From Lysobacter enzymogenes (GTDB lineage: Bacteria; Pseudomonadota; Gammaproteobacteria; Xanthomonadales; Xanthomonadaceae), in contig NZ_FNOG01000003.1 of assembly GCF_900106525.1 (NCBI RefSeq), positions 222,261 through 286,260 on the forward strand: a DNA stretch of 64,000 nt, given 5' to 3'. Below are positions 38,685 through 59,090 of this stretch, piece after piece. The position numbers and the translations under genes are program-made. Position 1 is the first letter of the stretch. Each line of letters begins with the position of its first letter. The notes beneath the pieces are model-generated. The model was not told the DNA's origin. It did not search any database and worked only from the letters and a program-made list of their open reading frames with translations.

Positions 38685-38772
38685 TGGTGCCCGGAGCCGG
38701 ACTCGAACCGGCACGGCCGCGAGGCCGGCGGATTTTAAGTCCGCTGCGTCTACCGATTTCGCCATCCGGGCA
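38685..38772 (-). tRNA. tRNA-Leu(TAA)
   Basis: An 88-nt class II tRNA with TGCCCGG/CCGGGCA acceptor, anticodon loop CTTAAAA with TAA, a long variable arm (CGGCCTCGCGGCCG), T arm with GGTTCGAGTCC, and encoded CCA. In E. coli the UAA leucine tRNA (leuZ) directly follows glyW-cysT; here it is 6.4 kb away and inverted. A -10-like TAAACT lies about 18 bases upstream of the 5' end. Confidence 0.96.
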
Positions 38773-41040: not shown

Positions 41041-41550
41041 TCACTCCGCTGCGCCGTCGGCGCGCACGCGCCGCAAGCGCTTGAGCTTGCGCTCCAGCAG
41101 CGCTTCGCGTTGCTCCAGTTCGGCCACCCGTTTGCGCAGCGCCTCGGCCTGGGCGTCGTGGCGCTCGCGCACCGCGTCGCTGGCCAGGTCCAGCGCTTGC
41201 AGCCACAACTGCCGCAGCGGCGCGGGCACTTCGTCGGCCAGCGGCGCCAGTTGCAGGCGCGTGGCCAGGCCCGCGTAGAAGCGCCGCAGCATCGGGTGCA
41301 GGCGGTTGGGCGAGCCGCTGCCGTAGATCGCGCGGATGCCTTCGACCGTGGGCTGCACGCCGGCGCGCAGCATGCGCCAGGCGATTTCGTCGAGCTGCGA
41401 CTGGTCCAGCGGAATGCGTTCGGACGCGACTCGCTCGGAGCCGGCCGCGCCCGAGGCCGCGCGCGGCGACAGCGCGCGCCCGCCGGGCAGGCGGCCTTCG
41501 GCGGCCAGGGCCTGGCGGATCGTCCACAGCGCGTCGTGGTCGGTCGCCAT
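41041..41550 (-). CDS. KfrA-N-type DNA-binding protein
   Basis: A 169-aa protein. The N-terminal part (I-R-Q-A-L-A-A-E-G-R-L-P, then D-E-I-A-W-R-M-L-R-A-G-V-Q-P-T-V-E-G-I-R-A-I-Y-G-S-G-S) matches the helix-turn-helix N domain of KfrA-like proteins. The C-terminal 60 residues form a long charged coiled coil (E-A-L-R-K-R-V-A-E-L-E-Q-R-E-A-L-L-E-R-K-L-K). KfrA proteins are plasmid-borne autoregulators; chromosomal members often sit with stress or surface genes. It is last in a minus-strand cluster with XpaC-like, VWA and TelA genes, eight bases after the XpaC-like gene, and is a plausible regulator of it. Confidence 0.78.
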   Translation of the reverse strand: MATDHDALWTIRQALAAEGRLPGGRALSPRAASGAAGSERVASERIPLDQSQLDEIAWRMLRAGVQPTVEGIRAIYGSGSPNRLHPMLRRFYAGLATRLQLAPLADEVPAPLRQLWLQALDLASDAVRERHDAQAEALRKRVAELEQREALLERKLKRLRRVRADGAAE

Positions 41551-41558
41551 CGCCGCGC

Positions 41559-42224
41559 CTAGGCCAGCTCGAACGCTGCGGCGGCGTCGAATTTTTCCTT
41601 GAGGAAGCGCTCGCTCAGCAGCAGCGATTCGGCGTCGCCGGCGAAGGCCTCGCGCGAGATGCGCTGCAGCGACTGGTCGAGCAACTCCAGTTGCTGCGAC
41701 AGCGTCTGCGCCGCGGTGCGGCCGTCCTTGAGCGGCTGGGTGCGGGCGAACACCGGCGGCAGCTTGAGATAGCCGCCGAGCATGTCGGGCAGGTAGCGGC
41801 GCAGGGTTTCCTGCACCGCGAACGCGGCCGAGGCCGACAGCGCGCCGGAGCCGCGCAACTCGCGCAGCCGCGGCAACAGTTCGGCCAGCGTCTGCTGGAT
41901 GCTGCGCAGGCTCGCCAGCGCTTCGGCCGGCACGCGCTTGGCGACCTCGCCGATCAATCGGTCGAGGTGTTCGATCAAGGCCTCGGCCGGCAGCTCGGCC
42001 TCGGCCACGCGCGCGCCGAGGCGGTCGCGCGGCCAGGCCAGTGCGCCGACTGCGTACAGGCCGAGCACGATCAGCGGCCAGCCGCGCTCGATCACCCCGG
42101 CGAACAGCAACGCCAGCCCGACCAGCGCGAGCGCGCAACCGGCGAGGTGGCGGTTGCTGTAGAGATACAGCCGCAGGCGCTGGCCTGCGCTCGGGGCGGT
42201 GGGCGGGGCGACCGGCAGGTTCAT
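41559..42224 (-). CDS. XpaC-like membrane protein, TelA partner
   Basis: A 221-aa protein with two adjacent hydrophobic helices (about 29-47 and 51-68), then a helical cytoplasmic domain. That domain includes the tract R-R-Y-L-P-D-M-L-G-G-Y-L-K-L-P and a closing R-F-L-K-E-K-F, which resemble the XpaC (5-bromo-4-chloroindolyl phosphate hydrolysis) family. In Bacillus, xpaC is next to a TelA-family gene (yaaN), and a TelA gene is two genes away here. The name of the family comes from a phenotype and is not a proven enzyme function. Its ATG overlaps the VWA gene's stop (TGATG). An open frame running much further upstream is a shadow of the VWA gene. Confidence 0.7.
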   Translation of the reverse strand: MNLPVAPPTAPSAGQRLRLYLYSNRHLAGCALALVGLALLFAGVIERGWPLIVLGLYAVGALAWPRDRLGARVAEAELPAEALIEHLDRLIGEVAKRVPAEALASLRSIQQTLAELLPRLRELRGSGALSASAAFAVQETLRRYLPDMLGGYLKLPPVFARTQPLKDGRTAAQTLSQQLELLDQSLQRISREAFAGDAESLLLSERFLKEKFDAAAAFELA

Positions 42225-43840
42225 CACTGGTATCCGCGGATGTCCTTGAACACCAAGGTCAGCGGCTTGTTCTTGGCGTCGAAGACCTGGCCGCCGGTGG
42301 CCTGGGCCAGGCCTTTCATCTCTTCCGGATCGGCGTCGCCGAACAGGATCGGGAACACGCGGATCGAGCGCAGCGCCTCGTCCTGGGTCGCGTACCAGCC
42401 CAGGAACTGGCGCAGGTCGCTGCCTTCGGTGTTCTCGCCGTCGCTCATCAGCACCACGGTGTAGTAGCGCGGCTCGCGCGCGGCGCGCTTGTCCGCGGCC
42501 AGTTCGGTCAGCGCCTGGCGCACGCTGTCGAAGATCGCGGTGCCGCCGTCGGGACGCAGCGGCGCGATTTCGGCGCGGATCGCGGACAGGGCCGCGGCGT
42601 TGCTGGCGGCGTCGGCGCCCATGTCGAACACGCGGGTGCGGCCGGGCCGCGAGGAGAAGGTCAGCACGCCGATGCGCTCGCGGTTCTGGAAGCGCGCGTA
42701 GCGGTCGGTCAGCGAATCGGCGCGGCCGCCGGCGAGGGTGTCCATCGCCGCCTTCATCGCTTCGATGCGGCCGTCGTTGCCCATCGAGCCGGACAGGTCC
42801 AGCACATAGCGCGAGCTGGCCGGAATGCGCAGGTCGGCGAGGAAGCCTTGCAGCAGGCTTTCGATCACCTGCGGCTGGCCGGGGAAGGGCAGTTCGATCA
42901 AGGTGCGCTGCGGGATCGCAGCGGCGGCCTGCGCTTCGGGATTGACCGGGCGGCGCAGGGTCGCGGCGGACAAGCGGGTCTGGAACGCCGGCGAGCGCAG
43001 GAACCCGACCAGCTTGTCGTACTGCGCGCGCTTGCCGGCTTCCAGCAGCATCAGCGGATAGTCGGCGGTGACGATGCCTTCCTTGGGATACACCAGGGTC
43101 AGCGGCTCGCCCAGATGGCCGTCGCGGTTGAGGCTCAGCAGCACCGATTCGTAATTGATCAGGCCGTCGACCTTGCCCTGTTCGCGCGCATACGCCTCGG
43201 CCAGCCAGCCCGAGGAACCGGCGGTCATGCGCTGGCCCTGGAAGAAGGCCTTGAGCGCGGGATTGGCGACGTCGGCTTCGGTCAGCGCGTCGGGATTGGC
43301 GGCCAGCGCGGCGGCGATGCCGATCAGCGCGGTGAAGCCGGTGTTGCTCGAGGCCGGGTTGGTCATGCCGAAGCTGAAGCGGCCTGCGCGCGAGGCTTCG
43401 GCGATGTCCTTCCAGGTCGGGTCGGTCTTGTCCCAGCCCAGCTCGCGCGCCTTGGAGGCCTTCACCCCCAGCGCCACCGGCGACAGCATGATTTTTTCCT
43501 GCGCCAGCAGCAGCTGCTTGAGCGCGAGATTCATCGCCAGGTACTTGCCGTGGCTGACCCACACCGCGTCGAACTTCTCGCCCGCGGCGAGGCGGTCGAT
43601 GGCGTCGAGCGTGCCGGCGTAGGCGAAGCGCGGGCGCACGCCGGTGGCGCGGGCGATCTCGTCGCCGAGCTGGGTGTCGACGTCCTTGAGCTCGGAGCCG
43701 GCGAGGATGGTGAAGGCCGTGTTGTCGTCGGCGCGGGCGGTGTCGCTGGCGCCACTGCCGGCGGAGCCGTTGCCGCCGCCGCAGGACGCCAGCAGCAGCG
43801 CGGCGAAGGCGAGCAGGGCGCTGCGCAGGAATCGGATCAT
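42224..43840 (-). CDS. Lipoprotein with substrate-binding and von Willebrand A domains
   Basis: A 538-aa protein. A lipobox L-L-L-A-S-C gives a lipid-modified C20. Residues 40-310 form a type 2 periplasmic-binding fold (F-T-I-L-A-G-S-E, N-T-G-F-T-A, Y-E-S-V-L). Residues about 343-538 are a VWA domain with an intact metal-ion-dependent adhesion site: D348-x-S350-x-S352, T434 in D-G-G-T-A, and D467 in M-S-D-G-E-N. The fused architecture suggests ligand sensing joined to metal-dependent protein binding at the membrane surface. The start at 43840 is set by the lipoprotein signal. It belongs to the TelA/XpaC cluster; a hairpin repeat separates it from telA. Confidence 0.88.
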   Translation of the reverse strand: MIRFLRSALLAFAALLLASCGGGNGSAGSGASDTARADDNTAFTILAGSELKDVDTQLGDEIARATGVRPRFAYAGTLDAIDRLAAGEKFDAVWVSHGKYLAMNLALKQLLLAQEKIMLSPVALGVKASKARELGWDKTDPTWKDIAEASRAGRFSFGMTNPASSNTGFTALIGIAAALAANPDALTEADVANPALKAFFQGQRMTAGSSGWLAEAYAREQGKVDGLINYESVLLSLNRDGHLGEPLTLVYPKEGIVTADYPLMLLEAGKRAQYDKLVGFLRSPAFQTRLSAATLRRPVNPEAQAAAAIPQRTLIELPFPGQPQVIESLLQGFLADLRIPASSRYVLDLSGSMGNDGRIEAMKAAMDTLAGGRADSLTDRYARFQNRERIGVLTFSSRPGRTRVFDMGADAASNAAALSAIRAEIAPLRPDGGTAIFDSVRQALTELAADKRAAREPRYYTVVLMSDGENTEGSDLRQFLGWYATQDEALRSIRVFPILFGDADPEEMKGLAQATGGQVFDAKNKPLTLVFKDIRGYQ

Positions 43841-43912
43841 GGGTGGGCCTTCCTGTGGCGGTCTATTGCTGGTGATCGAACGGTGGAACACGAGCCCTCG
43901 AACCTCCCGTTC

Positions 43913-44025
43913 CCGTCATTCCGGCGGAAGCCGGAATACATTTTGACGCTGCTCTTTTTCGGGTTGGCGCTGGCGGGAGCAACGGCAAGATCAAAATGGA
44001 TTCCGGCTTTCGCCGGAATGACGGG
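43913..44025. repeat. Inverted pair of ATTCCGGC...GCCGGAAT repeats
   Basis: Arms 43913-43947 and 43991-44025 are near reverse complements, each containing its own CCGGC...GCCGG mini-hairpin and ATTTTGA end. The pair lies inside the TelA-VWA gene cluster in the 229-base gap, where it could shape the mRNA. The same family forms a 41-nt perfect inverted repeat at 58964-59090. Confidence 0.88.
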
Positions 44026-44069
44026 GTGATGGGGGCGGCGTTGGTTCATTGAGGCGAGCGGCGGCCGGG

Positions 44070-45302
44070 TCAGAGCGAAACCGGTCCCGACGGCGCGGCG
44101 ATGCTGTGCTGCACCGCCGCCACCGCCTCGCGTTCGCGGTTCATGCGCGCCTCGCCCTTGGCGATCAGGCCGCGCAACTGTTCGATGTTGCTGCCCATCG
44201 CGCCGATCGCCTTGCTGCGGAACTCGTCCATGCGGTCGAGCGCGGCGAAGGTGGTGTCGAAGGCGTTCTGCAAGGTCTGCACGCCGATCAGCGGATTGCT
44301 CTGGAACTCGGCGACGCGGTCGACGTGCTGGCCGAACTGGGACGAGGTCGAGGCGATCAGGCCCTCGATCGCGCGCGAGGACGACTTGAGCGCATCCATC
44401 ACCTGCAACTGATAGCCCTGCGCGCGCGCCAGGGTCGCGGCGATCGACAGGCTGGACATGCCGATGGTGGCCATGCGGTCGCAGCCGTTGCGCAGCTCGC
44501 GCCCGGTCTTGCGCAGGCCTTCGAGCATCTTGTAGCCGTTGATGCAGACCAGGATCTGGGTCTTGATGTCGACGCTGGCCTGGCGCACGTAGAACAGCAC
44601 TTCCTGCTCCACCGCCTTGGCCCGTGCCGGGTCGGACGCCTTGAGCGAATCCAGCGCCGCGCTGAGCTTGCCGTCGAGCTGCTCGGCGAACACGTCGGCG
44701 GCCTTGAGCCGGGTCAGCGCCTCCAGCAGTTTCTGCATGGTCGCGTACAGCGCCTGGTCGTCGCGCGCCAGTTCGTCCTGCACCGCGTAGAGGCTGTCGA
44801 TGGTCTTGCGGATCGAGTCGCCGGCCGAGTCGAAGCGCTGCAGGTAGGCGCGCAGCTTGTTGCCGAACGGGATCAGCCCGAGCAGCTTGTGCGCGGCCAG
44901 CAGGTCGCCTTCCTTGGACGGATTGAGGTCCTCGAACAGGATGCGCATCTCGCTCATCACCTTGAACGCCGGGCTGTCGGCGTCGGCGATGAAGTTGCGG
45001 TCGAGGAACTTGTTGGTCAGCAAGGTGCTGTCGCCGATCTCCTTGCGGCCCAGACGGAAGGCGCTGTCGACGCGGCTGCGGAAGTCTTCCGAGTGCGGGT
45101 CCAGCGCCAGCAAATCGGCGATGAACTGGTCGGCCTGGCTGAGCACCTGGACCCGGGTGTCGTCCTTGAACGGAATCATTGCCGCGGCCTGGTCGGGCGC
45201 AGCGATGGTCATGGCCGGCTCGGGCATTTCCAACGTCAGCGGCGCGATGGGTTCGACGAGGGTGGTGGGCGTGGCGGAGTCTTGGGTCGGCGTCGTGCTC
45301 AT
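44070..45302 (-). CDS. TelA-family toxic anion resistance protein
   Basis: A 410-aa almost wholly helical soluble protein of the TelA (PF05816) family. It has the expected layout: a disordered N-terminal 40 residues, then D-P-H-S-E-D-F-R-S-R-V near 70, N-P-S-K-E-G-D-L near 130, I-P-F-G-N-K-L-R-A-Y-L-Q-R-F near 146, and a C-terminal R-N-G-C-D-R-M and A-Q-G-Y-Q-L-Q-V-M region. The family was named for tellurite resistance of plasmid genes; its biochemical role is unknown and it often goes with XpaC-like or VWA proteins. It starts 12 bases after the upstream anchored protein gene. Confidence 0.88.
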   Translation of the reverse strand: MSTTPTQDSATPTTLVEPIAPLTLEMPEPAMTIAAPDQAAAMIPFKDDTRVQVLSQADQFIADLLALDPHSEDFRSRVDSAFRLGRKEIGDSTLLTNKFLDRNFIADADSPAFKVMSEMRILFEDLNPSKEGDLLAAHKLLGLIPFGNKLRAYLQRFDSAGDSIRKTIDSLYAVQDELARDDQALYATMQKLLEALTRLKAADVFAEQLDGKLSAALDSLKASDPARAKAVEQEVLFYVRQASVDIKTQILVCINGYKMLEGLRKTGRELRNGCDRMATIGMSSLSIAATLARAQGYQLQVMDALKSSSRAIEGLIASTSSQFGQHVDRVAEFQSNPLIGVQTLQNAFDTTFAALDRMDEFRSKAIGAMGSNIEQLRGLIAKGEARMNREREAVAAVQHSIAAPSGPVSL

Positions 45303-45314
45303 GGCGGCGTTCCT

Positions 45315-46442
45315 TCAGTGGCCCAGCCGCGATTCGATGCGGCCGATCATGCGTTCGAGGAGGTCGTAGGTCGGCGGATCGACCACATCGACCAGTTGTT
45401 GCGGCATGCCGATGCCGCGTTTGGCGGCGTCGGCGAACAGCGCCGCGTTGTCGGGCCCGCGCAGGCCGTAGCGCGCGGCGATCTGCCGCACCTTGGGATT
45501 GCGCTCGAAGGCTTCGGCGAAGCGCGCGCCCTTGTCGTTGAGCGCGACGATGGTGTGCTTGGTCAGCACGGTCGGCTGCGGGTACAGCAGCACCATGTCC
45601 GCATCCACGCGCGGATGCTTGAAGGCGTATTCCAGGAACTGCTGCTCGTAGATCATCACCAGCGGCGACTTGCCCATCTTCATGGTGACGTAGTCTTCGA
45701 ACGGCCCCGAGGAACTGGATTCCTGGTAGCCCTGCTTGGAGAACAGGTGCACCAACCGGTCGGCGACCTGATCGGCGGCGCTCTCGCTGGCGACCACGTC
45801 GTCGCCGTTGGCCAGATAGCTGGCCAGGGCCAGGTACATCGCCGCCGAATTGCTGGTGCGCACATCCGTGCTGGTGATCAGCACCGACTTGCTCACCGCG
45901 TAGTTCGGGTTGGGCTGCAAGTCCTTCCAGCGCGCGCCGCTTTCCATCAGCGCCACCAGCTTGCGCATGTCGACGATGAAGTAGGCCTCGCCGCGCTTGC
46001 CGACGATGCCGTTGGCTTCCAGGGTCGGCAGCAGCGGCTTCCAGCTGGCCACCGTCATCGGCGTGTAGAAGCCGTTGTAGATGCGGCGCGAGCCGGTGGC
46101 GTCGGCGATCTTGCGCGCCGCGGCGGTGCCAGCGGGGTAGGCGGCGTCGAAGCTCTTGAGGTCCGGGCGGGTGGCGATTTCGCGCGAGCCGGCTTTCTGC
46201 ACGTCCAGGACGATACGGTCGGCGAGCAGGGCCTGGGCGAGTTCGGGGTCGCGCAGGAAATCGAGCTTTTCCGAGCCGGTGAGCACGCGCACGGTGATCA
46301 GTGCGGCGGCGTCGGCCTGCTGCTTCTGCGCCGCCGCGGCAGCGCGGTCGTCGGCGCGCTTGCCGTTGAAAGACATCACGATGCCGGCGATCACACCGAC
46401 CAACAACACCGCCGCGAACGCGGGGCCGAGGAATTTCCTCAT
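45315..46442 (-). CDS. Membrane-anchored periplasmic-binding-like protein
   Basis: A 375-aa protein with an N-terminal membrane anchor (residues about 6-24, F-A-A-V-L-L-V-G-V-I-A-G-I-V), an Ala/Gln-rich stalk to about 45, and then a type 2 substrate-binding-like domain. That domain opens with T-V-R-V-L-T-G-S-E, closely echoing F-T-I-L-A-G-S-E in the VWA lipoprotein of the same cluster, and later has S-S-G-P-F-E-D-Y and V-M-I-Y-E-Q-Q-F-L. No ABC permease or ATPase gene lies near, so transport is unlikely; sensing or protein interaction is more likely. It is the first gene of the five-gene minus-strand cluster. Confidence 0.78.
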   Translation of the reverse strand: MRKFLGPAFAAVLLVGVIAGIVMSFNGKRADDRAAAAAQKQQADAAALITVRVLTGSEKLDFLRDPELAQALLADRIVLDVQKAGSREIATRPDLKSFDAAYPAGTAAARKIADATGSRRIYNGFYTPMTVASWKPLLPTLEANGIVGKRGEAYFIVDMRKLVALMESGARWKDLQPNPNYAVSKSVLITSTDVRTSNSAAMYLALASYLANGDDVVASESAADQVADRLVHLFSKQGYQESSSSGPFEDYVTMKMGKSPLVMIYEQQFLEYAFKHPRVDADMVLLYPQPTVLTKHTIVALNDKGARFAEAFERNPKVRQIAARYGLRGPDNAALFADAAKRGIGMPQQLVDVVDPPTYDLLERMIGRIESRLGH

Positions 46443-58963: not shown

Positions 58964-59090
58964 GCGAAAATCAAAATGGATTCCGGCGTTCGCCGGAATG
59001 ACGGTGTTGAGGGCTGCATCCGGCCTTGAGTCGGCTCAGCTTCAGAGTTCCGTCATTCCGGCGAACGCCGGAATCCATTTTGATTTTCGC
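58964..59090. repeat. 41-nt perfect inverted repeat between convergent genes
   Basis: Arms 58964-59004 and 59050-59090 are exact reverse complements, 41 bases each, with a 45-base loop. Each arm contains the ATTCCGGC...GCCGGAAT mini-hairpin. It lies between the stop codons of the FMN protein and the ArsC-like gene, so it could act as a two-way transcript barrier, although no clear U-run follows. Confidence 0.93.

Follow-up and report, generated by a model that had tools for sequence, protein, structure and literature searches.

A conserved TelA gene cassette of Lysobacter enzymogenes with two exported binding-protein-like partners: a possible envelope-stress module

Do five neighboring genes of Lysobacter enzymogenes, one of them of the TelA family, form a single system, and what could such a system do? 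The genes lie in a window of 64,000 nucleotides (nt), meaning the whole stretch of DNA analyzed, on contig NZ_FNOG01000003.1 of a 6.26-Mb genome; coordinates refer to this window unless preceded by a locus label. All five frames are carried head to tail by the minus strand, from 46442 to 41041. A sequence-only reading of this DNA had proposed them as one envelope-stress system. The five frames are indeed present and correctly placed, no transporter gene is found within the cluster, and the assignments to TelA, to a substrate-binding protein (SBP) joined to VWA and to KfrA_N are borne out by Pfam. The first four genes, P1, TelA (P2), P3 and P4, are now well established as a conserved unit in many distantly related bacteria; the fifth, P5, is a local add-on and not part of the general system.

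The distribution of the unit was followed by a P1 pattern scan of a collection of 84,980 species, which gave at least 535 P1 relatives, and the best 80 loci were analyzed. The rarity of P1 first suggested by an order-wide search with P1 (P0001) alone, which found only its own genome among 151, is superseded by this wider scan. The order P1-TelA-P3-P4 on one strand is present in 61 of the 80 loci, and in 53 of these 61 every gap between matched stretches is below 300 nt. TelA is missing from nine loci (P1-P3-P4) and stands last in one (P1-P3-P4-TelA, L116). Three loci hold P1-TelA with no detected P3 or P4 (L095, L101 and L114; in L101, one more gene is followed by the contig end), and contig ends interrupt the cassette in six. 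As the loci were picked with P1 as bait, the rate of TelA, P3 or P4 without P1 cannot be read from them. By title, they belong mainly to Beta- and Gammaproteobacteria but also to Actinomycetota isolates, three of them Planotetraspora; single metagenome-assembled genomes (MAGs) are labeled Chloroflexi, Bacteroidetes, Cyanobacteria, Eremiobacterota and Spartobacteria, labels that may be wrong. No conserved neighbor was found outside the four genes; clusters of flanking frames span at most 16 of the 80 loci.

P1 relatives also occur on plasmids, in eight of 72,556 records (tblastn), and are accompanied by P3 in six of the eight, from Sphaerotilus, Nonomuraea, Deinococcus and Variovorax (three records). 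With one region inspected per genus, Sphaerotilus, Nonomuraea and Variovorax show the order P1-TelA-P3-P4, and Deinococcus has P1-P3-P4.

A sample independent of the co-occurrence seeding, 299 Pseudomonadota genomes, gives the same picture. P1 is present in seven genomes. P3 matches occur in 13, of which six span the VWA part only; the seven full-length matches are found in exactly the P1 genomes. TelA is more widespread (46 genomes, 39 of them without P1), and it includes all seven P1 genomes, adjacent each time. The P1/P3 coincidence has a p of about 2.5e-14 by counting alone; as the seven genomes represent only four families, the independent events are fewer than seven. The clustering of the four genes is well beyond chance. 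Rare co-occurrence had been named beforehand as the observation that would speak against a system; the opposite was seen, both in the 61 loci with full order and in the seven-of-seven coincidence.

Within the genus, P1 was found in nine of 20 Lysobacter genomes, each time within a complete P1-TelA-P3-P4 cassette, and six of these nine cassettes occupy one common site. P5 (41041..41550, minus strand, 169 amino acids) is a KfrA_N-domain protein (PF11740, E 2.6e-16). Its relatives (P0005 search) are present in six of the 20 genomes, always beside P4, and are absent from three of the nine cassettes, around which the tested flanking genes of the window were not detected either. No KfrA_N relative was identified among the frames of the 80 loci (blastp, E<=1e-5), nor in the four plasmid cassettes L040-L043 at E<=1e-2. 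The proposal of a system is retained for four of the five genes, which are conserved as a set, and its five-gene definition is rejected. The KfrA_N protein may act as a local regulator.

The four genes also diverge together. Across 62 loci, divergence correlates for P1-P4 (rho 0.73), P1-P3 (0.64), TelA-P4 (0.56), P3-P4 (0.50), P1-TelA (0.46) and TelA-P3 (0.41). None of 200 permutations reached these values for any of the six gene pairs, in a comparison that holds no control gene and in which common descent alone would also yield correlation. TelA is the loose member, with the lowest mean correlation by a small margin. No description of the four-gene set was found in the literature searched at title and abstract level, a search that did not cover the comparison by Anantharaman, Iyer and Aravind (2012).

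Two members of the unit, P1 and P3, are taken to be exported. P1 (45315..46442, minus strand, 375 amino acids) has no match in Pfam or NCBIfam at E up to 1, and no solved relative by sequence at E<=0.1. The structure prediction is an anchored two-domain type II SBP fold, with a transmembrane (TM)/stalk helix at residues 5-46 and the binding fold at 47-375, in agreement with the earlier description of an anchored periplasmic-binding-like protein. Three of the four best VIA neighbors are sulfate-binding, and Foldseek ranks polyamine- and sugar-phosphate-binding proteins first; thiamin- and iron-binding proteins are also among the nearest folds. Cleft-type loops, chosen post hoc, hold 24 of the 44 invariant residues. 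P3 (42224..43840, minus strand, 538 amino acids) is a putative lipoprotein, with a lipobox LASC found by reading, and combines SBP_bac_11 (Pfam, 1.7e-18) with a VWA domain (3.5e-10). Its solved relatives by sequence are VWA proteins and one ModA. The MIDAS residues D348-S350-S352-T434-D467 are invariant in 25 of 25 aligned rows; judged by these residues, the metal site of the VWA domain is intact. The SBP domains of P1 and P3 are homologous. The two proteins are likely receptors and not transport parts, because the set includes neither an ABC permease nor an ABC ATPase. Toxic-anion sensing by the pair, as had been suggested, is plausible from the modeled fold.

TelA (44070..45302, minus strand, 410 amino acids) matches PF05816 at E 5e-48 with 164 bits (cut-off 30), over positions 2-331 of 332, and is the only PF05816 match in this genome. 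It is predicted to be a soluble helical protein; no hydrophobic segment was found by Kyte-Doolittle analysis. Its solved relatives by sequence are weak matches to unrelated helical proteins only (best E 0.0028). Among the nine genomes with a TelA-less cassette, five have TelA elsewhere and four have none detected, all nine being MAGs and possibly incomplete. TelA has other contexts as well. At L152:5729-7412 (the same place as L031) it directly follows a 200-residue protein with a hydrophobic N-terminus, and an SPFH/flotillin-like frame, recognized by reading, lies upstream. In the Ter-type plasmid cluster L045, no P1 or P3 match is located near TelA, and a small hypothetical protein gives a weak P4 match (E 3e-4).

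P4 (41559..42224, minus strand, 221 amino acids) had been described as an XpaC-like membrane protein. Its model (pLDDT 87.7, pTM 0.67) has two TM segments and a helical C-terminal domain. Pfam gives a sub-threshold DUF3040 match only, and Foldseek no fold match at E<=0.001 in PDB or BFVD. The XpaC family model PF10112 (Halogen_Hydrol/XpaC) matches neither P4 nor any of 32 relatives at E<=0.1 (0 of 33 rows), so that P4 is rejected as a plain XpaC on this basis; the own genome gives no match to the model either. This model detects one of 14 control genomes (Lactococcus) and misses Bacillus subtilis, which has xpaC, so divergent members escape it. By hhalign, the alignment of P4 with 15 XpaC rows spans the TM segments and first helices and scores 32.3 (E 4.5e-4), compared with 18.2 for the best of 20 column-shuffled controls and 14.6 for P4 against TelA; with six short XpaC rows, the score is 26.8 versus 21.3 in controls.

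Gene position bears on P4 as well. Five of the seven P1 genomes of the Pseudomonadota sample, from another class (families f37 and f42; probably Alphaproteobacteria, a guess), have the order TelA-P3-XpaC-P1. The PF10112 family search gave XpaC in four of them, within a 120-genome sample, with the order taken from coordinates; in the fifth (G417), XpaC was read from the translation. In all five, a genuine XpaC directly follows P3, the place that P4 holds in Lysobacter, and TelA and true XpaC share one cluster with P3 between them. P4 is a probable, unproven counterpart of XpaC: its position and a weak profile similarity stand behind the earlier label, and membership by family model does not. 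P1 of XpaC-type cassettes starts with SRRAFG, unlike Lysobacter P1 (L143:6320-7426, L145:7506-8612, L146:6520-7626); we take this start to be a twin-arginine-like export motif.

What the unit does can be approached by analogy with TelA/XpaC pairs. That TelA with XpaC is known from Bacillus is confirmed: xpaC-yaaN is a core member of the sigma-W regulon in B. subtilis, according to the cited passage (PMC3498285), and pairs also occur in stress regulons of Listeria and Lactococcus. In Listeria, lmo1966-1967 (XpaC/TelA), members of the LiaSR regulon, respond to the bacteriocin garvicin KS, and a telA mutant is reported to show increased sensitivity, 4-fold for nisin and 2-fold for tellurite (PMC12791056, citing Collins 2010). 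In Lactococcus lactis, membrane-protein overproduction raises the XpaC-like llmg_1115 10.3-fold and telA1 3.4-fold, along with the CesSR response (PMC3139573). Further links of XpaC to peptide resistance are described in a source that calls its direct role uncertain (PMC7864038), and the 2026 Listeria paper states that the TelA/XpaC mechanism is not known (PMC12791056). On this analogy, we give slightly less than an even chance to the four genes being a TelA/XpaC-type envelope-stress module with an exported sensor pair of its own.

For such a module we infer the ligand, the contact of P1 with VWA, the topology of P4 and the direction of the signal. Two related receptors would face outward from the membrane: P1, held by an inner-membrane anchor, and the lipoprotein P3. 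P4, a membrane hairpin with a helical domain, would act together with TelA on the cytosolic side. The P1 and P3 clefts would close on a small, perhaps anionic, ligand that signals envelope damage or a toxic agent. The VWA MIDAS would then make or break a metal-bridged contact with a partner, for which P1 is the obvious candidate. The change would be relayed to P4 and TelA, which would protect or remodel the membrane.

Several observations weigh against this envelope-stress reading. The hhalign probability of P4 against XpaC is low, at 33% with 15 XpaC rows, 9% with six and 7% with seven. As TelA is absent from nine of the 80 cassettes and undetected in four of the nine genomes concerned, the P1-P3-P4 core may work without it. 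Two Streptomyces plasmid records have P1 relatives with no P3 match, and the one region examined holds a P1 relative alone; a Miltoncostaea plasmid record has a P3 relative at 9e-16 with no P1 match. Finally, no conserved regulator was recognized beside the cassette among the flanking frames of the 80 loci, and the cassette shows no promoter-like site of the sigma-70 type.

A bolder form of the envelope-stress reading is possible, though not probable: trans-envelope surveillance, in which two paralogous transporter-free receptors, one with a MIDAS VWA switch, would control an XpaC/TelA membrane-protection machine. If this is true, a dedicated ligand sensor would have the long obscure TelA family as its output. 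Cassettes without TelA would then point to P1-P3-P4 as the core sensor with TelA as an exchangeable output, and the defense genes lodged in some cassettes to swappable anti-phage effectors carried too.

Those lodged genes are also an argument for a phage-defense module, in which exported VWA/SBP proteins would detect or block phage entry or depolarization and TelA/P4 would reinforce the membrane. Defense-type genes lie within, or straight after, cassette members in three Methylococcales-titled loci: an AAA_21 + DUF3226 pair between P1 and TelA (L117:9106-11028; PADLOC PDC-M38A 4.8e-73, PDC-M38B 4e-13), an AbiH gene between TelA and P3 (L122:10447-11259; Pfam 2.6e-26), and an AAA ATPase straight after TelA, just before the contig end (L101:2239-3540; PDC-M07A 1.8e-91). 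Furthermore, a Variovorax cassette lies ~2.4 kb from a JetA-family Wadjet gene, and Aravind and colleagues' Ter/TelA proposal, in the part cited, has TelA-type sub-membrane components keeping out phage or xenobiotic (PMC7824862). The wider surroundings speak against such a module, and we consider it unlikely. PADLOC matches at E<=1e-20 are few among the 127 nearest neighbors, with at most four members per family among the 25 of 67 families listed, and the GajB-type rows are two UvrD-like helicases, taken for housekeeping proteins; the commonest Pfam families of these neighbors, among the 25 of 127 listed, are metabolic. Six of the nine Lysobacter cassettes share one site, and neither viral contigs, searched with P1 patterns, nor phage records, searched with P3, gave a relative at the settings used. 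A general defense-island context was sought among the nearest neighbors (25 families listed) and not seen; farther neighbors, in a rough comparison that is not a clean control, include eight families with PADLOC matches, AbiLi and MzaA among them. Among the five proteins of the cluster, only TelA matches PADLOC-DB, weakly (DruC E 0.0055, JetA E 0.043). Two other loci carry inserted proteins without any match (L120:10389-11141 and L104:10585-11436).

A third explanation would make the exported proteins an assembly or quality-control factor, in which the VWA and SBP-like folds would chaperone a membrane complex or metal cofactor outside the cytoplasm and TelA/P4 would hold the site. VWA domains serve in metal chelatases and in MoxR-type chaperone pairs. 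A MoxR-VWA pair is also mentioned in the cited part of PMC7824862. We regard this factor as distinctly unlikely: neither a client complex nor an AAA+ partner was recognized as a conserved neighbor in the 80 loci (25 of 127 families listed), and the SBP cleft-type loops, picked after the fact, keep invariant polar residues, which indicate a small ligand.

Service to an unlinked ABC transporter, for oxyanion, metal or polyamine uptake, is quite improbable. It would suit the type II SBP fold, with its nearest folds in sulfate-, thiamin-, iron-, polyamine- and sugar-phosphate-binding proteins, and some SBPs do serve unlinked permeases. The largest flanking-frame cluster, at varied distances in its 16 loci, resembles ABC ATPases by reading, and Sulfate_transp occurs in two of the 127 nearest neighbors. 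On the other side, the conserved set lacks a transporter, ABC_tran occurs in only four of the 127 (25 of 127 families listed), and neither an SBP fused to a MIDAS VWA nor constant linkage to a membrane/TelA pair is usual for transporters. A dedicated tellurite or selenite resistance operon, which the TelA family name and the sulfate-binding proteins high among the P1 fold neighbors would favor, is very improbable in view of the larger effect of the Listeria mutation on nisin (4-fold) than on tellurite (2-fold; PMC12791056) and of four conserved genes that include no reductase, efflux or Ter gene.

In the Lysobacter locus itself, the spacings from P1 to P5 are 12, 229, -1 and 8 nt, P3 and P4 overlapping by one base. 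For P3, the ATG at 43840, after AGGAAGG, is favored over the GTG at 43891. The TelA-P3 gap contains a REP-like pair of 35-nt inverted repeats (43912..44025; TTCCGGC...GCCGGAA). One arm scores terminator-like, which is no evidence of function, as four such sites were found in the region versus 3.7 expected. A second REP-like palindrome pair of the same type lies at 58981-59073, and a tRNA-Leu gene (anticodon taa) is located on the minus strand at 38685-38771, ~2.3 kb past the KfrA_N end of the cluster. Among eight flanking frames examined, five match AraC, Glyoxalase_3, HD, Epimerase and HPPK, and three have no match. Elsewhere, several Variovorax loci have a class-V aminotransferase gene immediately upstream of P1 (L086:5335-6651 and similar; Aminotran_5 in seven of the 127 nearest neighbors), and a PhoX-family phosphatase gene of Sphaerotilus (L040:7068-8990) ends 4 nt before P1. 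Downstream of P4, L068:12820-13257 gives a weak Pfam PIN match (4e-5); the frame cluster at this site spans seven loci, but a PIN-like stretch is present in one of five loci checked (L068), so the recurrence may be spurious.

Comparison with known systems places the cassette among several relatives. The pairs xpaC-yaaN of B. subtilis, lmo1966-1967 of Listeria and llmg_1115-telA1 of Lactococcus also set TelA beside an XpaC-type gene in envelope-stress responses; unlike these pairs, for which the cited passages mention no exported SBP or VWA partner, the cassette has both, and its P4, if an XpaC at all, is one that has diverged strongly. Type II binding proteins of the ModA/SBP_bac_11 and sulfate types share a domain family or fold with the N-terminal half of P3 and with P1, but P1 and P3 are predicted to be membrane-anchored, their set is transporter-free and one copy is fused to VWA. 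In TelA-XpaC clusters of the same phylum (L148-L150), TelA directly follows the XpaC gene. Their partner, unlike the SBP and VWA proteins here, is a lipoprotein, joined in L149 and L150 by what we presume to be an SPFH-type protein. Ter/TelA systems as defined by Anantharaman, Iyer and Aravind (2012) likewise hold both TelA and a VWA protein and form a membrane-linked stress system (PMC7824862, in the part cited). They differ in that the five genes of the cluster include no TerB/C/D-type match and that the VWA protein of the cassette is exported and SBP-fused; Ter families are also missing from the 25 of 127 families listed for the neighbors, although no search was aimed at Ter. Within the literature searched, the exported sensor half would be a new addition to the known type of TelA/XpaC stress module. 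Earlier work links TelA and XpaC to tellurite, nisin or envelope stress; in the cassette, TelA is joined by a pair of putative exported receptors whose ligand clefts can be predicted. Once the ligand of P1 and P3 and the partner of VWA are found, the signal of TelA becomes testable. TelA/XpaC regulons are described in Firmicutes, and the cassette reaches beyond them, to Gram-negative bacteria and Actinomycetota.

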